From: Deltaproteobacteria bacterium | GTDB lineage: Bacteria > Desulfobacterota > Syntrophorhabdia > Syntrophorhabdales > Syntrophorhabdaceae | Length of the DNA: 64,000 nucleotides | Direction: 5' to 3' | Assembly: GCA_022711595.1 (NCBI GenBank) | Contig: JAKLET010000005.1 | Location: 1-64,000 of the forward strand | In this document: positions 7,988 through 41,841 of the stretch, one piece after another | How the letters are laid out: each line of letters begins with the position of its first letter | Numbering within the stretch: the first letter of the stretch is position 1 | Translations under genes and position numbers: made by a program | Notes under the pieces: model-generated | Seen by the model: the letters and a program-made list of their open reading frames with translations, nothing else | Told to the model about the DNA's origin: nothing | Databases searched by the model: none

Positions 7988-8048
7988 CAAATTTTTGTTA
8001 ATATTTTCACAATACTTGTGGCTTTGCGATGAACCTCCGGGTTAGTAC

Positions 8049-8077
8049 TTGATGAATAACCGCAAATCCATTATGAT
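8049..8077 (+). promoter_or_regulatory. sigma-70 promoter of the carbonic anhydrase gene
   Basis: TTGATG (8049-8054), 17-nt spacer, TATGAT (8072-8077); the start would be near 8084, 26 nt before the ATG. It is divergent from the acs promoter, leaving about 60 bp between the two -35 boxes. Confidence 0.75.
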
Positions 8078-8109
8078 ACAGTACAAAACGATGATTAAGG
8101 GGGAAGGCC

Positions 8110-8694
8110 ATGATAAAAGACGCCGAGATCGATAAAGCATTGCAGGCGCTCATTGAGGGAAACAAAAGGTTCGCCGGATCGAAACAGCTCCATCCCAACC
8201 AGGATAAAAAACGCCGTGACGAGGTCGCGAAAGGTCAGAAGCCCTTCGCCATAATCGTTGGATGTTCTGATTCCAGGATCCCGCCGGAGATCCTCTTCGA
8301 TCAGGGCATCGGCGACCTTTTTATCATCAGGCTCGCCGGGAACATCGTCGACGATATGGCCTTAGGGAGCATCGAATACGCAGCAGACCATCTCGGCTGC
8401 CGCCTTGTAGTCGTCCTCGGCCATTCCAAGTGCGGCGCGGTGACGGCAACCGCACAGGGCGGCGAGGCCCACGGCCACATAGGAAGCATCACCGATGTCA
8501 TAAGCACCGCTGTTGAGAATGTTAAGGGAAAAACGGGGGATCTCGTGGACAACGCCATCAGGGAGAACGCCAGGCTCGTCACCGCCGCCATCGCATCGTC
8601 AAAACCCATGCTTGAGAAAATGGTCCAGGAGGGGAAGATCGCTGTGGCGACCATGTATTACGATATAGATACGGGACTGGTCGAGATCCTCTAA
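8110..8694 (+). CDS. can: Beta-class carbonic anhydrase
   Basis: 194 residues. Zinc ligands and catalytic residues of the beta class are all present: C52-S-D54-S-R56 and H105-x-x-C108. It interconverts CO2 and bicarbonate in the cytoplasm, supplying bicarbonate to carboxylases and biotin enzymes. GGGGGAAGG precedes the ATG. It stands alone behind its own promoter, divergent from acs. Confidence 0.93.
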   Translation: MIKDAEIDKALQALIEGNKRFAGSKQLHPNQDKKRRDEVAKGQKPFAIIVGCSDSRIPPEILFDQGIGDLFIIRLAGNIVDDMALGSIEYAADHLGCRLVVVLGHSKCGAVTATAQGGEAHGHIGSITDVISTAVENVKGKTGDLVDNAIRENARLVTAAIASSKPMLEKMVQEGKIAVATMYYDIDTGLVEIL

Positions 8695-8697
8695 AAA

Positions 8698-8908
8698 CCG
8701 TGAACAGTAAAGTGTTAGACGTGAGGTGTTGAAAAACATAGGTTTTTTACACCTTGCAGTTTCACGATTTACGCTTCACGGCTGGAACGGCTGAAACTGT
8801 TTACGCCTGACGCTTCACTCTTCACGGTTTCTAAAGCACTTCACGGTTTCACGCGCTTTACGCCTTACGGCTTATTGAACGGTTTAAACGGCTCAAACGG
8901 TTGAAACG
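8698..8908. repeat. Intergenic 7-bp-period array (TTYACGC type) merging into a 9-bp-period array (AACGGYTSA type)
   Basis: From 8698 the words GTGAAC, GTAAAG, GTTAGA and GTGAGG recur every 7 bp; from about 8760 to 8872 the complementary words TTCACG, TTTACG and TTACGG recur with the same period, so the two halves face each other as imperfect inverted arms. From 8866 the units AACGGTTTA, AACGGCTCA and AACGGTTGA recur every 9 bp and run into the 3' end of lgt, whose stop codon they provide. It fills the gap between two convergent genes. Confidence 0.75.
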
Positions 8909-9702
8909 CTATTTTTGCTTTTTCCCCGCTTCGGAAGGTAGAGGAACATGAGCGCTGCCCCCAGGAGCACCATGATCAGGCTCAGGACCTGTCCCATGCT
9001 GAAAGGACCCAGAACATGCCCGAGCTGGGTATCGGGCAGCCTGAAAAATTCGCAGAAGGTCCTGAATGCCCCATACAGAATAAGGAACAGGGCGAATACT
9101 TCACCTTCCCGTTTCTTTCTGTCCTTGTAGAACCAGAGGATCACAAAAAGAAGCAATCCTTCAAAAAAGGCCTCGTAGAGTTGAGAGGGGTGCCGGGGCA
9201 CCGGGCCTCCCTGGGGAAAGACCATGGCCCAGGGAACATCCGCCGGTTTACCGAAGAGCTCGCCGTTGATGAAGTTGCCGATCCTTCCCAGGCAGATCCC
9301 CACAGGGGCGGTTGGGATGATAAGGTCAACCGTTGTAAAAAGGGGAAGATTCTTTCTGATTATAATGATAACACCGGCGATGAAGGCACCGATGAGGCCG
9401 CCATGAAAAGACATCCCTCCATGCCATACCATGAATACTTCGAGAGGATTATCGATATAAAAACCCAGATTATAGAAGACCGCGTACCCCAGGCGGGCAC
9501 CGACAATGAGCCCTATTATAAGATAGAAGAAAAGATCGTCCACAGCCTCCCTGGGTATGCCCGGTTTCCTGCCACCCCTGAACTGGTACACCGTCAGGCC
9601 GTATGAGGCCAGGAAACCGAGGATATACATAAGCCCGTACCACCGCATGGCAAAAGGGCCTATCCTGAAGATAACAGGGTCAATATGGGGAAATTGGAGC
9701 AT
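8893..9702 (-). CDS. lgt: Prolipoprotein diacylglyceryl transferase
   Basis: 269 residues, seven-TM inner-membrane enzyme that moves diacylglycerol from phosphatidylglycerol to the lipobox cysteine of prelipoproteins. The HGGMSFHGG segment and the Lgt signature GRIGNFINGELFG are intact. Substrates in this window include the lipoprotein at 47978. The last five residues (SVSTV) and the TGA stop are encoded by a 9-bp repeat array, so the C-terminus may have been extended or reset by repeat growth. Confidence 0.95.
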   Translation of the reverse strand: MLQFPHIDPVIFRIGPFAMRWYGLMYILGFLASYGLTVYQFRGGRKPGIPREAVDDLFFYLIIGLIVGARLGYAVFYNLGFYIDNPLEVFMVWHGGMSFHGGLIGAFIAGVIIIIRKNLPLFTTVDLIIPTAPVGICLGRIGNFINGELFGKPADVPWAMVFPQGGPVPRHPSQLYEAFFEGLLLFVILWFYKDRKKREGEVFALFLILYGAFRTFCEFFRLPDTQLGHVLGPFSMGQVLSLIMVLLGAALMFLYLPKRGKSKNSVSTV

Positions 9703-9725
9703 AAGTCGAGTGGCCTCCTAAGAAC

Positions 9726-9901
9726 GGGTCATGGGTGATAGGTTATGGGTTATTAAAAACGGTTTCAACCGTTCCAGTCGTTTCACCAGTTTCAACGGGA
9801 AAAACTAAAAACTTAAAGCATTTAACTGCTGGAACGATTGAAACCGTTGGAACGGCTGAAGCCGTTTTCCTCATCACCCATAACCTATAACCTATAACCC
9901 G
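9726..9901. repeat. Nested inverted pair of degenerate 7-bp and 9-bp arrays
   Basis: Outer left arm (9726-9754) is GGGTCAT, GGGTGAT, AGGTTAT, GGGTTAT; the outer right arm (9873-9901) is ATCACCC, ATAACCT, ATAACCT, ATAACCC. Inside them a 9-bp array (9758-9799: AACGGTTTC, AACCGTTCC, AGTCGTTTC, ACCAGTTTC) faces its imperfect reverse complement (9826-9868). The whole forms a long two-layer imperfect hairpin between lgt and the upstream HAD gene. Confidence 0.85.
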
Positions 9902-9907
9902 TCTTCA

Positions 9908-10525
9908 TTACACACAATTCTCATGTATCACCTTCCATATATCTGCGGCCTCCCTGAAGACGATACCGGGGATACCGTAGGAGGCGGCAGCTTCGACATA
10001 CTGGGGAATATCATCAATATACAGGACCTCGTGCCTCTCAACGGTCTTTTTTTCGAATATTGTGTCATATATCTTCTCCGACGGCTTCTTCGCGCCCACT
10101 TCGAAGGAAAGTATCCATTCATCGAGATAGTTTACAATGGGATATTTCTCTATGATATGGGCGAAATGAAGTTCATTCGTGTTGCTGAGAAGGAAAACGG
10201 GATAACCTTTTTTCTTCAAATAAAGGATGACCTCATTGACGGCCGGGTCCTCTTCGAAGATATTGTTCCATATCTCCTTGAACTCCTCGAATTCCAGGTC
10301 CAGCTTGTATCTTTCCCGGAGCTTCATGAAAAATTCCCTGGACGTCGTCCGGCCCTCCTCATAAACGTTCACAAAACCCCTGGAATGATCGAAAAGGAAC
10401 TGGAAGACATCATCCGGCTTGAAACGGTCCCGGATCATGGAGGCCTCGTGGAGCTTCACAGCTATCTGGCGGTGCTCGAAGGGAAGGATGACCTTCCCGA
10501 GATCAAAAACAAAGAGCTTAATCAT
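9908..10525 (-). CDS. HAD-superfamily hydrolase
   Basis: 205 residues with an alpha-helical cap. Motif I is FDLGKVI (nucleophile D8, with Gly instead of the second Asp, as in YihX-like sugar-phosphate phosphatases); motif II is LLSNTN; the motif III/IV region has K (GAKKPS) and the acidic pair YIDDIP. A phosphatase on a small phosphorylated metabolite is likely, substrate unknown. Its start overlaps the 3' end of the upstream TraB-like gene by 8 nt, so the two form an operon. Confidence 0.8.
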   Translation of the reverse strand: MIKLFVFDLGKVILPFEHRQIAVKLHEASMIRDRFKPDDVFQFLFDHSRGFVNVYEEGRTTSREFFMKLRERYKLDLEFEEFKEIWNNIFEEDPAVNEVILYLKKKGYPVFLLSNTNELHFAHIIEKYPIVNYLDEWILSFEVGAKKPSEKIYDTIFEKKTVERHEVLYIDDIPQYVEAAASYGIPGIVFREAADIWKVIHENCV

Positions 10526-11310: not shown

Positions 11311-12327
11311 ATGAAAACATCAATAAAAACGGCGTTATTGCTCGTCTTCATTGCATTTGCGCCGGCCCTTGCATCTCAGACACCCGCCATCGACATGATC
11401 ATCGGCGGCGAGACGACCCACACCGTCGCAAAGGGCGACAACGTCTACCGGGTGGGCGCAAAGTACGGCGTGTACTGGAAAAACATCGTCAGGGACAACG
11501 GCCTCGACGAAAAACAACCCCTTGTCGAGGGTACCGTGCTGAAACTGAACAACAGGAAGATCGTCCCCAGGGTGGTCGAAAACGGCATCATCATAAACAT
11601 TCCCGACCGCACACTCTATTTTTTCCAGGCCGGTCAGCTCATGGCCCTGCCGGTGGGCCTCGGCGCCATTTTCCGAAACGAGTTCGGAGACTGGAAAACA
11701 CCTGAAGGAAAATTCCACATCAAAAACAAAAGGAAGGACCCTGTCTGGTACGTGCCTGAATCGATCCAGATCGAATATGCCCTGAAAGGCAAAGAGGTTG
11801 AAGAGGCCGTACCGCCCGGTCCAAAAAACCCCCTTGGCAAGTACGCCATCACGACCTCCATCCCTGCCGTTCTCATCCATGACACCATCTATCCCGGGAG
11901 CGTTTATCGTTATATGAGCCACGGGTGCATAAGGATGCTCCGCGAACACATCGAACGTCTTTTCCCCCTTGTCGAAATAAACACCCAGGGCGAGATCATA
12001 TATGAGCCCGTAAAGATCGCCAGCACCGCCGAAGGCAGGATCTTCCTTGAAGTGCGCACCGATGTATACAAAAAGCACCGTTCACTGAAGCAGTATGCCA
12101 CAAAACTGATCGAGTCCCGCGGCATCTCGGACAAGGTGGACTGGCAGAAGGTGGAAAAACTCATCAAGGAAGAAACGGGCGTGGCCGAAGACATATCTCT
12201 GTCGCCGCCGCCAAAGGCCGCCCCTTCAACGCAGTCATCCTCCTCACCGGGATTCACCCGGCGGATAATCGACTATTTCAAGACAAAGTTCAAAAAACCT
12301 GCTCAAACAAGCAGTCAAAAACTCTAA
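11311..12327 (+). CDS. Periplasmic L,D-transpeptidase with LysM domain (ErfK/YbiS type)
   Basis: 338 residues. A signal peptide (about 1-22, cleavage near ALAS) is followed by a LysM module (about 37-80, HTVAKGDN...) and a YkuD catalytic domain (about 90-220) with His190 and the SHGCIRM motif, nucleophile Cys206. The C-terminus is Ser/Pro rich and then basic. Such enzymes make 3-3 crosslinks or attach lipoproteins to meso-DAP in the periplasm. Monocistronic; a bidirectional terminator follows. This is one of two YkuD-domain proteins in the window. Confidence 0.9.
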   Translation: MKTSIKTALLLVFIAFAPALASQTPAIDMIIGGETTHTVAKGDNVYRVGAKYGVYWKNIVRDNGLDEKQPLVEGTVLKLNNRKIVPRVVENGIIINIPDRTLYFFQAGQLMALPVGLGAIFRNEFGDWKTPEGKFHIKNKRKDPVWYVPESIQIEYALKGKEVEEAVPPGPKNPLGKYAITTSIPAVLIHDTIYPGSVYRYMSHGCIRMLREHIERLFPLVEINTQGEIIYEPVKIASTAEGRIFLEVRTDVYKKHRSLKQYATKLIESRGISDKVDWQKVEKLIKEETGVAEDISLSPPPKAAPSTQSSSSPGFTRRIIDYFKTKFKKPAQTSSQKL

Positions 12328-26066: not shown

Positions 26067-27133
26067 GACTTGTCATATCCGCGGGAGGAACAGGCGGACA
26101 CATCTTTCCGGGAATAGCCGTGGCCGAGACGCTTATGAAAAAAGACGCGGACAGCAGCGTCCTTTTTATCGGGACCCCCTATGGACTCGAAGGAAAATTC
26201 ATTCCCGGCGCCGGCTTCAGGCTCAGTTTTATCGAGGCGCACCAGTTCCTGGGGCGCTCCCCGGTCCACAAGATGATCACCATCCTGAGGGTCTTGAAGG
26301 GCATTGTCATGTCACGCAGGATCCTGAAGGAGGAAAAACCCGACGCCATCCTCGGTATGGGAGGCTTCACCTCGGTGCCGGTCATAATCGCGGGCCGGCT
26401 GCTCGGCATACCCTGTTTCGTCCATGAACAGAACGTTCAGCCCGGGCTTGCCAACAAGCTCCTTTCAAAGATAGCCCGCATGACCTTCATAAGCTTCGAG
26501 GGGACGCGGGAATACCTCAAGGGGAAGAAGGTCCTCCACACCGGCAACCCGCTGCGCCAGAGACTGAAAAAGCTTGAAGGCCTCAGAAAGGAAGGCTCCT
26601 CCTTCGGCATCTTCGTCTTCGGCGGGAGCAGAGGGGCAAAAAGCATCAATGACGCCGTACTGACCCTGCTGCCTTATCTCGAAGGCCGCAAGGATGCCGT
26701 CATATACCATCAGACGGGCGCCGATGACCTTGAAAGGATAAGCGCCGCCTATTCAAAAAGCCCTGTGGCCCACGAGGTCTTCGCCTTCACCGACGAAATG
26801 GAGAAATACTACGCCCTCTCCGACGTCATCATATCCAGGGCGGGGGCCACGACCATATTCGAACTTGCCTTTTTCCGCAAGGCCGCCATACTGATCCCCT
26901 ACCCTTACTCGGCAGGCAACCATCAATGGCAGAACGCCGCTTATGTGGAGGCGACAGGAGGGTGCTACCTCATCGGCAACGATGAAGCAACGGGAGAGAG
27001 GCTTTTTGGCGTTATAAGCCATCTCATGAAAGAACAGGAACTGAGCAGGGAAATGGGAGAAAACCTGGGAAAGATATTCGTGGAGGACGCGGCGGCGCGC
27101 ATCATCGGAGGAATAGAACATGGTCTTTCATAA
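26063..27133 (+). CDS. murG: UDP-GlcNAc:lipid I N-acetylglucosaminyltransferase
   Basis: 356 residues from ATG 26063 (MRLVISAGGTGGHIFPG). GT28 glycine loops GGTGGH and GGSRGAKSIN and the nucleotide-sugar region SRAGATTIFE are intact. It converts lipid I to lipid II at the inner membrane. It overlaps the previous gene by 4 nt and murC by 14 nt. Confidence 0.95.
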   Translation: MRLVISAGGTGGHIFPGIAVAETLMKKDADSSVLFIGTPYGLEGKFIPGAGFRLSFIEAHQFLGRSPVHKMITILRVLKGIVMSRRILKEEKPDAILGMGGFTSVPVIIAGRLLGIPCFVHEQNVQPGLANKLLSKIARMTFISFEGTREYLKGKKVLHTGNPLRQRLKKLEGLRKEGSSFGIFVFGGSRGAKSINDAVLTLLPYLEGRKDAVIYHQTGADDLERISAAYSKSPVAHEVFAFTDEMEKYYALSDVIISRAGATTIFELAFFRKAAILIPYPYSAGNHQWQNAAYVEATGGCYLIGNDEATGERLFGVISHLMKEQELSREMGENLGKIFVEDAAARIIGGIEHGLS

Positions 27134-28496
27134 AATAGAGCGGGTGCATTTCGTCGGCATCGGAGGCATCGGGATGAGCGGTATAGCCGAGGTCCTCATA
27201 AACCTCGGCTTCAAGGTCACCGGCTCTGATGTTCGCCAGACGGAGATCACTCAACGCCTGGAAACGCTGGGCGCGACGATATTTTACGGCCATCGCGGGG
27301 AGAACATCGTCGACTCCGACGTGGTCGTCATATCGTCGGCGATAAGACCCGACAACCCGGAGGTGAAAAAGGCAAAGGAACTCTTCATCCCCGTCATCCA
27401 GCGCGCCGAGATGCTCGCCGAGCTCATGCGTATGAAATACTCCATTGCCGTCGCGGGGGCACACGGCAAAACAACAACGACATCCCTTGTTTCCTCCATC
27501 CTCGGCCACGCCGGGCTCGATCCCACCTGCGTCATCGGCGGAAGGCTGAATTCCCTGGGAAGCAACGCAAAGCTCGGTGACAGCAAGTTCCTCGTCGCCG
27601 AGGCCGACGAGAGCGACGGCACGTTCCTGCTCCTTTTCCCCACCATCGCCGTCACGACGAACATCGACCTGGAACACCTCGATTTCTACAAGGACATAAA
27701 CGACATCAAGGCCGCCTTCCTGGCCTTTCTCAACAAGGTCCCCTTCTACGGGCTCAACGTCATCTGCATCGACAACGCGAACGTGCAGAGTCTCATCCCC
27801 ATGCTGAAACGCCGTTACATGACATATGGCCTGTCCAAACAGGCCGACCTGAGGGCTGAAGGCATCTCCTATGAAGGATTCCTGACGAGGTTCAGGGTCA
27901 TTTACAAAGGCTATGACCTGGGTGAAATAGAGCTCACCCTGCCGGGGATCCACAACGTGGTCAATGCGCTGGCGGCGTGCGGCGCCGCAATCGAGCTCGA
28001 CATACCCTTTCGGACCATACAGGAGGCCCTGAAGGACTTTTCCGGGATACACCGCAGGCTGGAGGTGAAATGGGACGGCGAGATCAAGCTCATAGACGAC
28101 TACGGACACCACCCGACGGAGATCAAGGCGACCCTGTCGGCGATACGGAAGATGTGGAAGGGGCGGATCATCGTGGCCTTTCAGCCTCACCGCTACACGA
28201 GGACACAGGCGCTCATGGAAGATTTCGTGACATCCTTTAACGAAGCGGACATCCTCATCCTCACCGAGATCTACGCGGCGTCGGAGGACGCCATCGAGGG
28301 GGTGACGGGGTCCAACCTCGCCGAGAAGATACGTGCGAGCGGCCACAAGAATGTCGTCTTCGCGCCTGAAAGAGAAGATGTTGTGCAGAAGATCCTGGAG
28401 AACGCGGCCGCGGGGGATGTAGTCGTCACCCTCGGCGCCGGCGACCTCTATAAAATTGACGAGAGACTGAAAAGCGCATGGAGTGGAAAGGAATAA
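27120..28496 (+). CDS. murC: UDP-MurNAc:L-alanine ligase
   Basis: 458 residues. FVGIGGIGMSG (about 11-21), P-loop AGAHGKTTTTS, VAEADESDGTF and DDYGHHPTEI are all present. It catalyses the first amino-acid addition. The start sits behind GGAGG, inside the end of murG. This is the housekeeping MurC; the related ligase domain at 33602 is separate. Confidence 0.95.
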   Translation: MVFHKIERVHFVGIGGIGMSGIAEVLINLGFKVTGSDVRQTEITQRLETLGATIFYGHRGENIVDSDVVVISSAIRPDNPEVKKAKELFIPVIQRAEMLAELMRMKYSIAVAGAHGKTTTTSLVSSILGHAGLDPTCVIGGRLNSLGSNAKLGDSKFLVAEADESDGTFLLLFPTIAVTTNIDLEHLDFYKDINDIKAAFLAFLNKVPFYGLNVICIDNANVQSLIPMLKRRYMTYGLSKQADLRAEGISYEGFLTRFRVIYKGYDLGEIELTLPGIHNVVNALAACGAAIELDIPFRTIQEALKDFSGIHRRLEVKWDGEIKLIDDYGHHPTEIKATLSAIRKMWKGRIIVAFQPHRYTRTQALMEDFVTSFNEADILILTEIYAASEDAIEGVTGSNLAEKIRASGHKNVVFAPEREDVVQKILENAAAGDVVVTLGAGDLYKIDERLKSAWSGKE

Positions 28497-33397: not shown

Positions 33398-33408
33398 CCT
33401 CCTTTAAC

Positions 33409-33445
33409 CGGGGTGGCGCGCGCAAATTCTCGTCCCGCCACCCCG
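33409..33445 (+). other. Strong hairpin after ftsZ
   Basis: CGGGGTGGCG (33409-33418) pairs with CGCCACCCCG (33436-33445). It is followed by A rather than T, so it is not a classical intrinsic terminator on the plus strand; it may protect the ftsZ mRNA 3' end. Confidence 0.6.
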
Positions 33446-33601: not shown

Positions 33602-35509
33602 ATGATGGACAGCGGGCGATTGCATCGCATATATAAAAGACTTCGGGAATTCCTGACCGATCCCGCGGAGCCCTTCCTCGTCCAGTCGATAGAGGCGCAA
33701 ACCCTCTTCGTCTGCGAGAAAGACACTGTCACCATGAGCTATGGTGCTTCAACCTCCCGCTTCGGCTGCGGCATCCGTGAAAACTCCTTCAAAACACCCC
33801 CGGGAATCCATCGGGTCAGGGAAAAGATAGGGTCAGAAGCGCCCGCTGGTCGTATCTTCAGGGACCGCCGGGACACGGGGATCGACTGGGACCGCAGCCT
33901 GACGGAAGACAATCTCATATTGACACGCATCATTCGGCTTGAAGGCCTGGAGGAAGGGATCAACAAGGGTGCGGGGGTGGATTCATATGAGCGTTTCATT
34001 TATATCCACGGCACGAACCGGGAGGACCTTGTGGGCACCCCGCTGTCCCACGGGTGCATTTGCTTAAAGAACCGGGATATCCTCCACCTCTTCGAGAGGG
34101 TCAGTGAAGGCACCGTCGTTTACATCGACCCGCCGCCCGTAATGGTCGGCGAAAGACCCTGCCGAAGCTTCCATTTCACCGGCGTCTTCGGCACCGGCAT
34201 GAGCGCCCTCGCCCAGTATTTGCGCTTCCAGGGGATCGAGGTTTCCGGTTCCGACCGCCTGCTCTCCAGCGAGGACACCGCTTCCATGAGACGATCTCTG
34301 GAAAGGCTGGGGTGCGTCATCGTCGACCAGGACGGCTCGGGCATCAGCAAAGACACCGACGCCCTCTGCGTTTCAACAGCGATAGAGCTGTCCAATCCCG
34401 ACATCGCCGCCGCGCGGACCCATGGTGTCCCCGTCATACACCGGTCCGACCTGCTCGCCTCGATCATCGCTTCAAAAAGGACGATAGCCGTCGCCGGCAC
34501 AAGCGGCAAATCGACGGTGACGGCGATGATATTCGAATTCCTTAACGCGTGCGGCAAGTCGCCATCGCTGATAAGCGGCGCGCCGCTTATCAGCCTTGAG
34601 AGACAGGGACTCATAGGCAACGCGTTTTGCGGGGGCTCTGATCTCCTGGTCGTCGAAGCGGACGAGAGCGACGGGACACTGGTCAAATATTCACCCGAGG
34701 TCTCCGTTGTTCTCAATATCTCCAAGGACCACAAGAACGTTGATGAGATAAAAGAACTTTTCAGCACGCTCGTTTCAAGGTCTTCCTGGACCGCGTCAAA
34801 TTCGGACGACCCGGGGCTTGCCGGTATCCCGGCCTCAGAGGGATTCGGCAGCGGTCCATCCGCCTCGTGGCGACCCGACAGCGAAGAGACCCTGAAGACC
34901 TCGGTCCGGCTCCTGCGAGGCGGTATCGGGTATCACCTGCCCCTTCCGGGAAAACACAACCTTGAGAACCTGCGCGCAGCACTGTGTGTCTGCGAACATT
35001 TCGGCTGCGAAGGACAGGCCGTTGCCGACGGCGTTAAGGATTTCAAGGGTGTGGCCAGACGCTTTGCCGTAACAATGACAAAACAGGGAGTGCATGTTGT
35101 CGACGATTTTGCGCATAACCCGGCAAAGATAGCGGCCGCTGTGGATGCCGCACGGGGCCTTTCCCGGCGCATCATTGCCGTGTACCAGCCGCACGGGTTC
35201 GGCCCGACACGTTTTCTGAAAGATGAATACATCGAGACCTTCCGGTCTGTCTTCCGCCGCGGCGATTCCTTCTACATGCTGCCCATCTACTATGCCGGAG
35301 GCACCGCGCAAAAGGACATTTCTTCGGAAGACATCATAACCGGCCTCGGCCCCGTGGAGTTCGACGCGCAAGCGTCAGGCGGACGGGAGACATTACTGAC
35401 CGCGCTCAAAACAGACGCAAGGCCGGGGGACTGCGTCCTTGTTATGGGTGCCCGCGACCCGTCCCTTCCCGCCCTGGTGAAAAAGGTCATTGAACTCTTC
35501 GGCGGGTGA
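33602..35509 (+). CDS. Fusion of a YkuD L,D-transpeptidase domain and an Mpl/MurC-like Mur ligase
   Basis: 635 residues with no signal peptide or TM, so cytoplasmic. Domain 1 (about 1-180) is YkuD-like: His136 in IHGT and SHGCICLKN with Cys152. Domain 2 (about 188-635) is a three-part Mur ligase: GVFGTGMSALA (194-204), P-loop AVAGTSGKST (about 296-305), EADESDGT, and DDFAHNPAKI, closer to Mpl (DDFAHHP) than to MurC (DDYGHHP). MurC itself is present at 27120, so this is a second enzyme. Mpl reattaches recycled L-Ala-D-Glu-meso-DAP to UDP-MurNAc; the fused YkuD domain could trim D-Ala from the tetrapeptide first, the job of LdcA. AGAGGT precedes the double ATG. It lies 205 nt after ftsZ, same strand. 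Confidence 0.85.
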   Translation: MMDSGRLHRIYKRLREFLTDPAEPFLVQSIEAQTLFVCEKDTVTMSYGASTSRFGCGIRENSFKTPPGIHRVREKIGSEAPAGRIFRDRRDTGIDWDRSLTEDNLILTRIIRLEGLEEGINKGAGVDSYERFIYIHGTNREDLVGTPLSHGCICLKNRDILHLFERVSEGTVVYIDPPPVMVGERPCRSFHFTGVFGTGMSALAQYLRFQGIEVSGSDRLLSSEDTASMRRSLERLGCVIVDQDGSGISKDTDALCVSTAIELSNPDIAAARTHGVPVIHRSDLLASIIASKRTIAVAGTSGKSTVTAMIFEFLNACGKSPSLISGAPLISLERQGLIGNAFCGGSDLLVVEADESDGTLVKYSPEVSVVLNISKDHKNVDEIKELFSTLVSRSSWTASNSDDPGLAGIPASEGFGSGPSASWRPDSEETLKTSVRLLRGGIGYHLPLPGKHNLENLRAALCVCEHFGCEGQAVADGVKDFKGVARRFAVTMTKQGVHVVDDFAHNPAKIAAAVDAARGLSRRIIAVYQPHGFGPTRFLKDEYIETFRSVFRRGDSFYMLPIYYAGGTAQKDISSEDIITGLGPVEFDAQASGGRETLLTALKTDARPGDCVLVMGARDPSLPALVKKVIELFGG

Positions 35510-37412: not shown

Positions 37413-38807
37413 ATGAGCGGCGTATTCGGCATACTATCAAGGAAGGATTGCGCGAGCAACCTGCTCTACGGCACTGACTACCACTCGCATATGGGGACCG
37501 AATACGGCGGAATGGCCGTGCTGGGAGAGAGGTTCTTCCGCAGCATCCATGATATCAGCAAGTCCCAGTTCAAATCAAAGTTCTATGAAGAATACAAGGA
37601 GATGAGGGGAAATGCCGGCATCGGCGTCATCAGCGACCGTGACGCCCAGCCCCTTATTATCGGCTCCAGGTTCGGCAACTTTGCGGTCGTTTCCTCGGGT
37701 ATCGTTGAAAACGTGAAAGAGCTGGCAGCGGAGCTTCTTTCCAGCGGCGAGTCCTTCAGCGAGATGTCCGCCGGCGGCATCAATTCCGTGGAGCTCATCG
37801 CCAAACTCATCACCAGGGGAAAGACCCTTATCGACGGCATCGAGGGCGTCTACGACCGGATCGAAGGTTCCGCCTCGATCCTGCTCCTCAAGGAGGACGG
37901 CATCTATGCCGCCAGGGACCGCCTGGGGCGGACACCTCTTGTCATCGGAGAAAAGGACGGCGATTATGTCGTCGCCACCGAGACCTGCTCTTTTCTCAAC
38001 ATGGGGTATCACATCCTGAAGTACATAGAACCGGGGGAGATCGTCCGCATCAGCCCATCAGGGCTTGAAAGCAAGCTTCCAGGAAAGGACCGCAACCAGA
38101 TCTGCTCCTTCCTGTGGATCTATACGGGTTATCCCGCCTCAAGCTATGAAGGGATCAGCGTCGAGGTGGTCAGGGAGCGCTCGGGAAGGCTCCTTGCCAA
38201 GAACGACAATATCGAGGCCGACCTCGTTGCCGGGGTGCCCGATTCCGGGGTGGGCCACGCCATCGGTTATTCCATGGAATCGGGTCTGCCATACCGCCGG
38301 CCGCTGGTCAAATACACGCCCGGGTACGGAAGAAGCTACACCCCTCCCTCTCAGGAGATACGGGACCTTGTGGCCACCATGAAGCTGATCCCCATCAGGG
38401 ACATCATCGCCGGGAACCGGATCGTCCTTTGCGAAGACTCAATCGTCCGCGGTACTCAGCTCAAGAACTTTACCGTCAGCAAGCTCCTTGAATCCGGTGC
38501 CAGGGAGATCCACGTCCGGCCTGCCTGCCCTCCCCTGATGTTCCCGTGCAAATTCGCACTCTCGACACGTTCCATCGATGAGCTTGTCGCCCGCAGGGCC
38601 ATCAATGACCTCGAAGGCAAACGCACCGACAATATCGCCGAATATCTCGACGATACTTCGGAAAAATACGGGAAGATGGTAGACTGGATCACAAAAGAGA
38701 TCGGGGTGACCACCCTGAAGTATCAAAAGATAGGCGACATGATAGAGGCCATCGGCCTGCCGCGGGCAAAACTCTGTCTTCATTGCTGGCTCGGGGAAGG
38801 TAATTGA
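37413..38807 (+). CDS. PurF-like amidophosphoribosyltransferase lacking the N-terminal cysteine
   Basis: 464 residues. N-terminal Ntn glutaminase-like domain, then a PRTase domain with the PRPP motif VLCEDSIVRGTQ and iron-sulfur-type cysteines late in the chain (PACPP, CLHC). The catalytic Cys that should follow Met1 is Ser (MSGVFGIL), so glutamine hydrolysis by the usual mechanism is not expected. A known PurF-like subfamily has this change. It might use free ammonia or serve another phosphoribosylamine-type reaction. AAGGAGG precedes the ATG. Confidence 0.75.
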   Translation: MSGVFGILSRKDCASNLLYGTDYHSHMGTEYGGMAVLGERFFRSIHDISKSQFKSKFYEEYKEMRGNAGIGVISDRDAQPLIIGSRFGNFAVVSSGIVENVKELAAELLSSGESFSEMSAGGINSVELIAKLITRGKTLIDGIEGVYDRIEGSASILLLKEDGIYAARDRLGRTPLVIGEKDGDYVVATETCSFLNMGYHILKYIEPGEIVRISPSGLESKLPGKDRNQICSFLWIYTGYPASSYEGISVEVVRERSGRLLAKNDNIEADLVAGVPDSGVGHAIGYSMESGLPYRRPLVKYTPGYGRSYTPPSQEIRDLVATMKLIPIRDIIAGNRIVLCEDSIVRGTQLKNFTVSKLLESGAREIHVRPACPPLMFPCKFALSTRSIDELVARRAINDLEGKRTDNIAEYLDDTSEKYGKMVDWITKEIGVTTLKYQKIGDMIEAIGLPRAKLCLHCWLGEGN

Positions 38808-38839: not shown

Positions 38840-40861
38840 ATGAAGGGAGACGAACTCTTCCGCCAACTGGCGGCGCGTGAGCCTTTTGCAAGCCTTCACC
38901 CTGCGGTGGGAGGCTTCTTCAAGGAATATCTCTCCCACGAGAAAGCGGTGAGCTTCAACGGCCGCTATGTTATCAACACCCATTTCCCGCCCTTTCCGGG
39001 CAAGGCTTTCGACAACCTGACACATCATTTTGATTCTATCGGCGAAACTGCCGGGCGCAGGCTCTACTCCGTCACCTTCGGCGTCACCAACCGCTGCAAT
39101 TACAGTTGCTGGCACTGTTACAACGCCGGGCGCTCCCAGCAGGACATGAGTTTTGCAAATATCGAAAGGATCGCAAGGCAGCTTTCCGGGTACGGCCCGG
39201 TCATGGTCAATCTCTCCGGCGGAGAACCGCTCCTTCGCAAAGACCTGGAAGATATCGTCGCGCTGTTCGATGACTCTTCCTGCCTGATGCTGAACACGAC
39301 CGGCTCGGGACTGACCGGCGGGCGGGCGCGCTCGTTGCGTCAGGCGGGTCTTTTCGGCGCCGGCATCAGCCTTGATTCCATCGACCCCGGGCAGCACGAC
39401 AGGATGCGCGGCATCAAGGGCGCCTTCAAAACCTCCCTTCGCGCCATAGAAACAGCCCGTGATAACGGCCTGTACCCTTATATCGTGACCGTCGCCACCC
39501 ACGAATTGCTGCAATCGGGCGGGCTGATGAAGTTCATCGAATTCGCCGGAAATTGCGGGGCCCTGGAGGTGCACCTTCTTGAACCGTGCCCAACGGGACG
39601 GCTAAAGGGAAACAGCGGCGCTGTCCTCTCGGACCGTGAAAAACGGGACGTTCTCAGCCATCAAAAGACCATCGCGGCCAGAGACGATCTGCCGATCCTT
39701 TCCACATTCCTCTACCTTGAATCGGCAAAGGCATTCGGATGCGGCGCGGGCCTCACCTATCTCTACATCGACGGCACCGGAGAGGTCTGTCCCTGCAACC
39801 TGGTGCCGCTCAGCTTCGGCAATGCCTCGAAAGAGGAACTCTCCTCGATACTTTCGCGGATGGGAAAACACTTCGCAAGGCCCCGCACCTTATGTGCGGG
39901 CCACGTCCTCAGCGGGCATATCCCCGATATTCCCCTTCCCGCCGAGCGTCATATCTCCGAAGAGCTTTGCCGGGAACATCTTCCCTCCAGGCATGGTATG
40001 CCGTTGTTCTTCAGGGTCAAAAAGAAGGCCTTATCAAGCGTCGGACGCGAGGAGCTGCGGGCGGCATACGACAGGATACACGATGACTATGACGCCTTCT
40101 GGCTCTCTGAGGCCAAAGGGCCCATAGAGCATCTGGTGAAAAAGATCATTCCCGCGCACTGCGGGAGAGTGTTCGAAGCAGGCTGCGGAACCGGCTACGC
40201 AACGGCCCTTCTCGCAGGGGCCCTGAAACCCTCATGCCGTATCGTTGCCGCCGATATCTCAAAGGGGATGATAGGGGTTGCGAAGGTACGCATCCGGTCA
40301 GAAGGTCACAGGAACGTCCGCTTTATCCACGGGGACGCGCTTGAGATAATGCCCGGACACGGTCCCTTCGACCTTGTCTTCAGCAGCTGGGTCCTGGGAT
40401 ATATCCCGCTGAGGCCTTTTTTTACCGCCGCCGCCTCTTCTCTCAATGATGGCGGACGTCTTGCCTTCGTCGTTCACAGACAGAACTCCCCCGCCCGGGA
40501 GATCGGAATATTCCGCGAGCTTGTCGCCGAAGACCTTTCGGTTCTGCAAAAGAAGGTTCACTTCGACTTCCCCGAAAACAGGGGGCAGGTGGAGGCCGCT
40601 CTCGAGGAAAACGGCCTTTTTCCCGAAGAACTCACCGAGGGACATATAACCTTCACATACACATCGCCCGGCGGGGTGCTTGAACACCTGCTCCGCTCCG
40701 GCGCCGGGACGGCCTTTTACGACGCCATAGACCCTGTGAGACGAAGCGAAATGGAGGGGCGGTTCAAGGCCTTGCTCGTCGAAAAGAACAAACCCGCAAG
40801 GGATTACCCTGTCGTTCATGACTACGTCCTCTGTGTGGCGGCAAAGAGAGGAAGAAAATGA
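38840..40861 (+). CDS. Radical SAM enzyme fused to a SAM-dependent methyltransferase
   Basis: 673 residues. The radical SAM core has C86-x3-C90-x2-C93, GGEP (127-130) and later cysteines (301, 317, 319, 352) that resemble a SPASM-like auxiliary cluster. A class I methyltransferase domain begins near 405, with motif I VFEAGCGTGYA (444-454) and post-I DIS. The two halves use SAM differently. Enzymes with this plan often modify peptides or small natural products, but no precursor peptide was seen nearby. It overlaps glk as ATGA, so the two are co-translated. Substrate unknown. Confidence 0.8.
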   Translation: MKGDELFRQLAAREPFASLHPAVGGFFKEYLSHEKAVSFNGRYVINTHFPPFPGKAFDNLTHHFDSIGETAGRRLYSVTFGVTNRCNYSCWHCYNAGRSQQDMSFANIERIARQLSGYGPVMVNLSGGEPLLRKDLEDIVALFDDSSCLMLNTTGSGLTGGRARSLRQAGLFGAGISLDSIDPGQHDRMRGIKGAFKTSLRAIETARDNGLYPYIVTVATHELLQSGGLMKFIEFAGNCGALEVHLLEPCPTGRLKGNSGAVLSDREKRDVLSHQKTIAARDDLPILSTFLYLESAKAFGCGAGLTYLYIDGTGEVCPCNLVPLSFGNASKEELSSILSRMGKHFARPRTLCAGHVLSGHIPDIPLPAERHISEELCREHLPSRHGMPLFFRVKKKALSSVGREELRAAYDRIHDDYDAFWLSEAKGPIEHLVKKIIPAHCGRVFEAGCGTGYATALLAGALKPSCRIVAADISKGMIGVAKVRIRSEGHRNVRFIHGDALEIMPGHGPFDLVFSSWVLGYIPLRPFFTAAASSLNDGGRLAFVVHRQNSPAREIGIFRELVAEDLSVLQKKVHFDFPENRGQVEAALEENGLFPEELTEGHITFTYTSPGGVLEHLLRSGAGTAFYDAIDPVRRSEMEGRFKALLVEKNKPARDYPVVHDYVLCVAAKRGRK

Positions 40862-41841
40862 ATAACATCATCGCTGTTGACATTGGGGGGACAAACAGCC
40901 GCTTCGCGCATTTCACGCTTGACGACACGGGCAGGCTCTCATTCATCGGCAAACTGCAGCTGAAGACCGTCGAAACCTCCTCTCTTGACGACCTTGTCGG
41001 AAAAGTGCGGCAGGAAGAGGGTCCCATGGTATCGTCAGGAAAATGGGACGCGGCGGTGTTCGCCGTTCCGGGAGCGGTGGAGGGAAACACCCGGGCAAAG
41101 CTTGCGAACGTGGCCTGGGCGGTGGACATATCCGGCCTGAGGCAGCGTTTCCCGGATAAAAAGATCTTCCTCATCAATGATTTTGTCGCCCAGGCATATG
41201 CCTGCCCCTTGGAAGACAAGACAGAACAGAAGATCGTCCAGGAGGGACACAGGGAAGAAGGCGCCGCAATGGCGGTGATAGGGGCCGGGACGGGTCTCGG
41301 GCACTGCGCCCTTGCAACGGACGACCTGGGCGGCTTCACCGCCGTTCCCTCCGAAGCCGGTCACGCATGTTTCCCGTTTTACGGAAAGACTGAAAGCGCC
41401 TACCAGGACTATCTCCTCAAGGCAACCGGCGCGGCCTATCCATACGGCGATCTGGTTGTATCCGGGCCGGGCCTGTCGCATCTTCACGCCTTTCTGACCG
41501 GCAGAAAACTTGCTCCCAGAGAGATTGTCCAGGAGATCGTGCCCGATTCCGAGACAACGGCCCTGTTCGCCCGTTTCTACGCGCGTGCGTGCCGCAATTA
41601 CACCCTTACCGTCCTTGCCACGGGAGGGCTCTTCATCGCGGGCGGCGTGGCCATGAAAAATCCCTTTCTGGTGGTCAACGACCATTTCAGAAAGGAGTTC
41701 AACAACTCTGAGCACTTCGGCGCGATGCTTGGAAAGGTGCCCGTCCGGCTCATATTAAGCGAGGACAGCGGCCTCTGGGGTGCGGCGAATTACGGCGCCA
41801 TAAGATTGAAAGAAGATCATAAAGATTCAGGTCATGGGTGA
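40858..41841 (+). CDS. glk: Glucokinase
   Basis: 327 residues, bacterial Glk type. Phosphate loop VDIGGTNSRFA (about 7-17), the catalytic Asp in LINDFVAQAYA, GAGTGLGHC and the GGLFIAGGVA adenosine loop are present. It phosphorylates glucose, perhaps from the glycoside hydrolases at 43-47 kb. The last codons (GGTCATGGGTGA) and stop are part of a 7-bp repeat array. Confidence 0.88.
   Translation: MNNIIAVDIGGTNSRFAHFTLDDTGRLSFIGKLQLKTVETSSLDDLVGKVRQEEGPMVSSGKWDAAVFAVPGAVEGNTRAKLANVAWAVDISGLRQRFPDKKIFLINDFVAQAYACPLEDKTEQKIVQEGHREEGAAMAVIGAGTGLGHCALATDDLGGFTAVPSEAGHACFPFYGKTESAYQDYLLKATGAAYPYGDLVVSGPGLSHLHAFLTGRKLAPREIVQEIVPDSETTALFARFYARACRNYTLTVLATGGLFIAGGVAMKNPFLVVNDHFRKEFNNSEHFGAMLGKVPVRLILSEDSGLWGAANYGAIRLKEDHKDSGHG

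Follow-up and report, generated by a model that had tools for sequence, protein, structure and literature searches.

The YkuD-Mur ligase fusion gene and its relatives

The window, a 64,000-nucleotide stretch of DNA from the bacterial family Syntrophorhabdaceae, carries on its forward strand a single open reading frame of 635 amino acids (33602 to 35509) encoding a YkuD domain, a short linker, and a complete Mur ligase, as the sequence-only reading of this DNA had described. The frame itself, Pfam, NCBIfam, homologues, and AlphaFold identify the gene as a fusion of an ElsL-type YkuD domain to a ligase of the MurC/Mpl class. The start is probably at 33605 (Met2), because homologues begin there and a GAGGT precedes it by 5 nt. 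The YkuD domain and all three Mur ligase domains exceed their own Pfam cut-offs (64.7 bits against 23.4 for YkuD). The L,D-carboxypeptidase-like YkuD domain (residues 27 to 175; 33680 to 34126) was recognized by Pfam PF03734 (E 1.8e-17), by the ElsL model NF040925 (E 1.6e-36), and by its fold. Its catalytic His136 (codon at 34007 to 34009) and Cys152 (34055 to 34057, within SHGC, at the nucleophile position of the YkuD family) stand at the residues named in the sequence-only reading and are invariant in 39/39 aligned fusions and in 10/10 unfused relatives. The ligase comprises an N-terminal, UDP-MurNAc-binding domain (Mur_ligase; residues 190 to 292; 34169 to 34477), an ATP-binding middle domain (Mur_ligase_M; residues 297 to 464; 34490 to 34993), and a C-terminal, peptide-binding domain (Mur_ligase_C; residues 486 to 618; 35057 to 35455). 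The P-loop of the middle domain reads GTSGKST (34496 to 34516; G[TA]HGKTT in MurC and Mpl) and is invariant in 41/41 aligned ligases. In the C-terminal domain, the ligase alignment places DDFAHNP (residues 501 to 507; 35102 to 35122) opposite DDYGHHP of MurC and DDFAHHP of Mpl.

Among NCBIfam models, the nearest were murC (273.6 bits; cut-off 335.1), ElsL (125.6; cut-off 270), and mpl (103.2; cut-off 388.7); all three scores fall below the cut-off, and therefore none of these models claims the fusion protein. AlphaFold predicted the two-part protein with a mean pLDDT of 90.8 and a pTM of 0.90, given an alignment of the window protein with loci from the related-locus search, and the YkuD part alone with values of 91.6 and 0.88, respectively. 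The N terminus lacks a hydrophobic stretch (best 13-residue hydropathy window, 1.22), whereas the same window gave 2.7 for a LysM-YkuD protein encoded at 11311 and 2.58 for FtsQ; this call rests on hydropathy with positive controls rather than on a trained predictor. The reported lack of a signal peptide was thus upheld, and a cytoplasmic location is supported as a prediction.

Full-length homologues with 55 to 78% identity occur in many independent assemblies, which rejects an assembly artefact as the origin of the fusion. A search for the same domain pair, proposed in the sequence-only reading, recovered it: the ElsL-type domain is present in 30 of the 46 genomes of the order, always sharing one long frame with the ligase (contig ends truncate two of these), and full-length relatives were also found in metagenome-assembled genomes (MAGs) that their depositors labelled Nitrospirota and Fibrobacterota. 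We conclude that the fusion is genuine, ancient, and conserved. The ligase, fused or solo, is carried by 33/46 genomes of the order. A scan of the phylum sample with the ElsL model returned 2 of 148 genomes, both of the window's family, and the ElsL-type domain is therefore restricted within that sample. In a Chitinispirillales MAG (L023), the two halves lie in overlapping open reading frames (8001 to 8531 and 8515 to 9921), either a genuine pair of genes or a frameshift confined to that assembly. An apparent ElsL-Mpl fusion (genome G207) was rejected, as its 887-amino-acid open frame merely extends beyond an ordinary Mpl.

We found no description of a YkuD-Mur ligase fusion in the literature searched (published papers available without subscription). 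A published survey of ElsL orthologs dropped proteins longer than 200 amino acids (PMC8649774), so fusions of this kind could not appear in it.

The gene follows ftsZ in the window. Membership in the dcw cluster was set aside as evidence, since no queried dcw gene adjoins the fusion in those loci of relatives that were examined. We also rejected a classical terminator in the interval separating it from ftsZ: on this strand, the 9- to 10-bp GC-rich inverted repeat at about 33408 to 33444 is followed by a run of A, not T. The fold of this intergenic region is ordinary (z = −1.33).

The carboxypeptidase-like and ligase halves

ElsL of Acinetobacter baumannii has been proven to be an L,D-carboxypeptidase of the YkuD family that works in the cytoplasm (PMC8649774, PMC8630537, PMC9239154). 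The sequence-only reading overlooked it in placing the usual site of YkuD activity outside the cell, a premise that is now partly superseded. ElsL requires its cysteine (C138) and converts disaccharide-tetrapeptide to tripeptide (M4 to M3) in vitro (PMC8649774), with independent support for its role (PMC8630537, PMC9239154), and it supplies Mpl (PMC8649774, PMC8630537). The YkuD half resembles ElsL in its compact domain, lack of a signal peptide, His/Cys pair, and proposed step. ElsL, however, is a standalone protein (model length, 164 positions) with a separate Mpl downstream, whereas the YkuD half is joined to its ligase. LdcA (S66) and LdcV share the proposed L,D-carboxypeptidase step but belong to other catalytic classes, serine and zinc (PMC8649774).

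ElsL is the closest NCBIfam model to the YkuD half, although the half falls short of the curated cut-off of this narrow, "exception"-type model. In the predicted model, the half adopts a YkuD fold (B. subtilis YkuD 4a1i, Z 16.6, rmsd 2.1, 116 residues aligned). Judging from its family, it is very probably an L,D-carboxypeptidase, in line with the reaction proposed in the sequence-only reading. One feature counts against the recycling reading: the Arg two residues past the catalytic Cys (HGCxR) is present in 8/10 solo relatives, but almost all fusions have C, A, T, or V there, which also distinguishes them from ElsL at the sequence level. Some of the unfused relatives (L030, L032, and L034) have lipoprotein-like or signal-like N termini and are probably secreted; we therefore call the unfused set ElsL-like rather than strictly ElsL.

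The ligases of the fusions form one clade (support 100/100) on a long stem of 1.67 changes per column, apart from a MurC clade (95/91) and an Mpl clade (99/100). Because the tree (44 rows) was built under LG+G4 rather than a mixture model, and long branches triggered a warning from the program, we make no claim about branching order among the three clades. Overall, MurC (TIGR01082; 1p3d) is nearest to the fusion ligase in sequence and fold. The top structural match is MurC 1p3d, solved with UMA and an ATP analogue (Z 40.2, rmsd 3.4, 432 aligned), with Mpl of P. arcticus (3hn7) lower (Z 32.5, rmsd 3.4, 429 aligned). The N-terminal domain has a mean identity to MurC of 34%, and the residues on the UDP-MurNAc side are conserved and common to MurC. 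ATP/Mg residues K303, E352, D354, H377, and N453 are common to the fusion ligase, MurC, and Mpl.

The peptide-binding side differs. MurC of H. influenzae contacts L-Ala through H376, R377, R380, Y346, and H348 (PMC3060825). At 35186 to 35212, the fusion has QPHGFGPTR in place of the L-Ala-binding QPHRYTRTR of MurC, and the extended motif QPHGFGPTRF is nearly invariant among the 41 aligned fusion or solo ligases. In H. influenzae numbering, R377 is replaced by G and R380 by P in 41/41 of them, compared to retention of R380 in 15/15 and R377 in 12/15 of the MurCs examined. H376 and H348 are retained, and Y346 is F in nearly all. Forty-nine positions are specific to the clade, R618 in the C-terminal loop among them.

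With its L-Ala arginines lost, its score under the TIGR01082 cut-off, its own clade, and a true MurC alongside, the fusion ligase is rejected as a canonical MurC. It shares with Mpl (TIGR01081; E. coli mpl) a three-domain Mur ligase architecture, DDFAH, the UDP-MurNAc class, and the proposed substrate. Its earlier description as Mpl-like, however, depends on the single motif DDFAHNP, and over the full length the ligase scores nearer to MurC. Identity with canonical Mpl is nevertheless rejected: the TIGR01081 cut-off is far from reached, the protein lies outside the Mpl clade, the Mpl motif EPRSNT occurs in 0/41 aligned fusion or solo ligases, and EADEYDSK is likewise absent from the alignment. 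Since neither EPRSNT nor an Mpl score points to the substrate, peptide specificity is argued by elimination. In our reading, the second half is a ligase of the UDP-MurNAc class in which residues for L-Ala recognition are gone; a stem peptide is its most probable substrate, and it may well work like Mpl.

Recycling genes in the window genome and its order

The window genome, with 58 contigs and a listed completeness of 100%, was surveyed by family and protein searches, on which all genome-wide statements here rest. The sequence-only reading had named separate ldcA and mpl genes as a finding that would refute it, and the outcome favored it: S66 LdcA gave no match even at E <= 10 and no Mpl exceeded its cut-off. 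A separate, intact MurC is encoded at 27120 to 28496 of the window (forward strand; 543.7 bits), about 5 kb upstream of the fusion, and retains QPHRYTRTQ.

AmpG is present in 41/46 genomes of the order, the window genome included. AmpD (Amidase_2) was found in one of the 46 and NagZ (GH3) in three, the window genome being among neither; the upstream recycling route is therefore non-canonical, which counts against a bifunctional recycling enzyme. In the window genome, a DUF1460/AmiA-like amidase gene (L094:10812-11762, minus strand; E 1.9e-65) adjoins ampG (L094:8992-10275); taking the start that its homologues share, the product lacks a signal peptide and is predicted to be cytoplasmic. This amidase could take the place of AmpD in freeing the stem peptide. 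Further DUF1460/AmiA-like genes lie beside ampG at L099:9577-10335 and L100:3386-4123. Two genomes without the fusion, G168 (L100:5262-8031) and G173, have a NagZ gene directly beside ampG; both carry S66 LdcA and a more canonical recycling set, still with no Mpl.

None of the 10 fusion genomes outside the order (the one with the split L023 pair included) had a canonical Mpl above its cut-off, compared to 6/9 genomes with unfused ElsL-like YkuD proteins. The remaining three, which count against the recycling reading, are all Verrucomicrobia MAGs; because the two sets differ in phylogeny, this contrast is support rather than proof. Within the order, Mpl occurs in 0/46 genomes, with or without the fusion, so its absence there is not informative by itself. 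Mutual exclusion of LdcA and the fusion in the order was not significant (Fisher p 0.70), a point against the recycling reading: both occur in 5 genomes (5/30 of those with the fusion), the fusion only in 25, LdcA only in 4, and neither in 12.

In two genomes, G178 and G177, the ligase stands without a YkuD domain (472 and 471 amino acids, respectively), and these solo ligases sit at separate positions among the fusions in the tree. G178, which keeps the ligase but lacks the YkuD domain, carries an S66 LdcA, a point for the recycling reading. G177 has neither the YkuD domain nor S66 LdcA, a point against it. A DUF885 gene (L076:3839-5539, minus strand) ends 3 bp upstream of the G177 solo ligase on the same strand and could encode a substitute carboxypeptidase.

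Proposed role in peptidoglycan recycling

In E. coli, peptide trimming and reattachment are carried out by separate proteins. We consider it likely that the fusion is a cytoplasmic, bifunctional peptidoglycan-recycling enzyme, with both activities, the peptide substrate of the ligase, the coupling, and the order of steps being predictions. Muropeptides would enter through AmpG, and the DUF1460 (AmiA-like) amidase, not AmpD, would free the stem peptide. The ElsL-type YkuD domain, acting through Cys152 and His136, would cut the terminal D-Ala from L-Ala-gamma-D-Glu-mDAP-D-Ala to give the tripeptide, which the ligase would join to UDP-MurNAc at the expense of ATP, yielding UDP-MurNAc-tripeptide, a MurF substrate. 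With both domains on one protein, trimming would be coupled to ligation and tetrapeptide would not reach the precursor pool; the reverse order, trimming after ligation, is also compatible with the data. The sequence-only reading is partly supported, by location, YkuD type, loss of the L-Ala arginines, and gene content; its premise on where YkuD enzymes act needs correcting, and the ligase belongs to a third clade beside MurC and Mpl. With somewhat less confidence, we favor the broader view that such ligases constitute a third, hitherto unrecognized class of UDP-MurNAc:muropeptide ligase, with an evolution separate from that of Mpl and joined to an ElsL-type carboxypeptidase, which would replace the missing Mpl and LdcA in the window's order and in the bacteria labelled Nitrospirota and Fibrobacterota.

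Other functions were weighed against this one. The closest overlaps with it: the YkuD domain may edit the product, the ligase joining tetra- or tripeptide and the YkuD domain trimming UDP-MurNAc-tetrapeptide. ElsL does act on a sugar-linked tetrapeptide, M4 to M3 (PMC8649774), and Mpl enzymes accept tetrapeptide too, less well (PMC3060825), but a DUF1460 amidase with the supposed activity would make tetrapeptide available in free form, and we regard product editing as rather unlikely. It is unlikely, too, that the ligase makes a specialised envelope precursor by joining a substrate that is not a murein stem peptide, such as a different amino acid or peptide, or by using a different sugar nucleotide. 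The long stem of the clade and its specific positions, including R618, would fit such a role; the old, conserved fusion to an L,D-carboxypeptidase-type domain, the MurC-like residues on the UDP-MurNAc side, and the matching gap for Mpl do not.

That the ligase is a second MurC, adding L-Ala to UDP-MurNAc with the YkuD half as passenger or regulator, seems very unlikely. Its score for murC does exceed that for mpl, and MurC structures are its closest folds, but the murC score stays under the cut-off, both L-Ala arginines are gone from every member, a full MurC lies upstream, and the ligase falls in a separate clade; a passenger YkuD domain would also sit poorly with an invariant catalytic pair. 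We give hardly any weight to the YkuD half being an L,D-transpeptidase or exchange enzyme on cytoplasmic peptides instead of a carboxypeptidase. The nearest solved YkuD folds are mostly transpeptidases, yet the nearest family, ElsL, is a carboxypeptidase, and the carboxypeptidases Csd6 and Pgp2, as well as Bd1075, align over 139 to 143 residues compared to about 115 to 126 for most transpeptidases. We also know of no cytoplasmic cross-linking partner for such an enzyme.

If the bifunctional recycling reading is correct, lineages that appear Mpl-less and LdcA-less to standard annotation would recycle their walls via a fused carboxypeptidase-ligase, gene fusion would tie ElsL to its partner step, and a ligase class missed by the curated murC and mpl models would be exposed. 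The fusion offers a single protein in which trimming, ligation, and their possible coupling can be assayed, with a simple prediction on the peptides accepted.

Elsewhere in the window, positions 38840 to 40861 encode a 673-amino-acid radical SAM/SPASM protein fused to a methyltransferase domain, flanked by genes for a GATase_7 protein resembling PurF (37413 to 38807) and a glucokinase-like protein (40858 to 41841).
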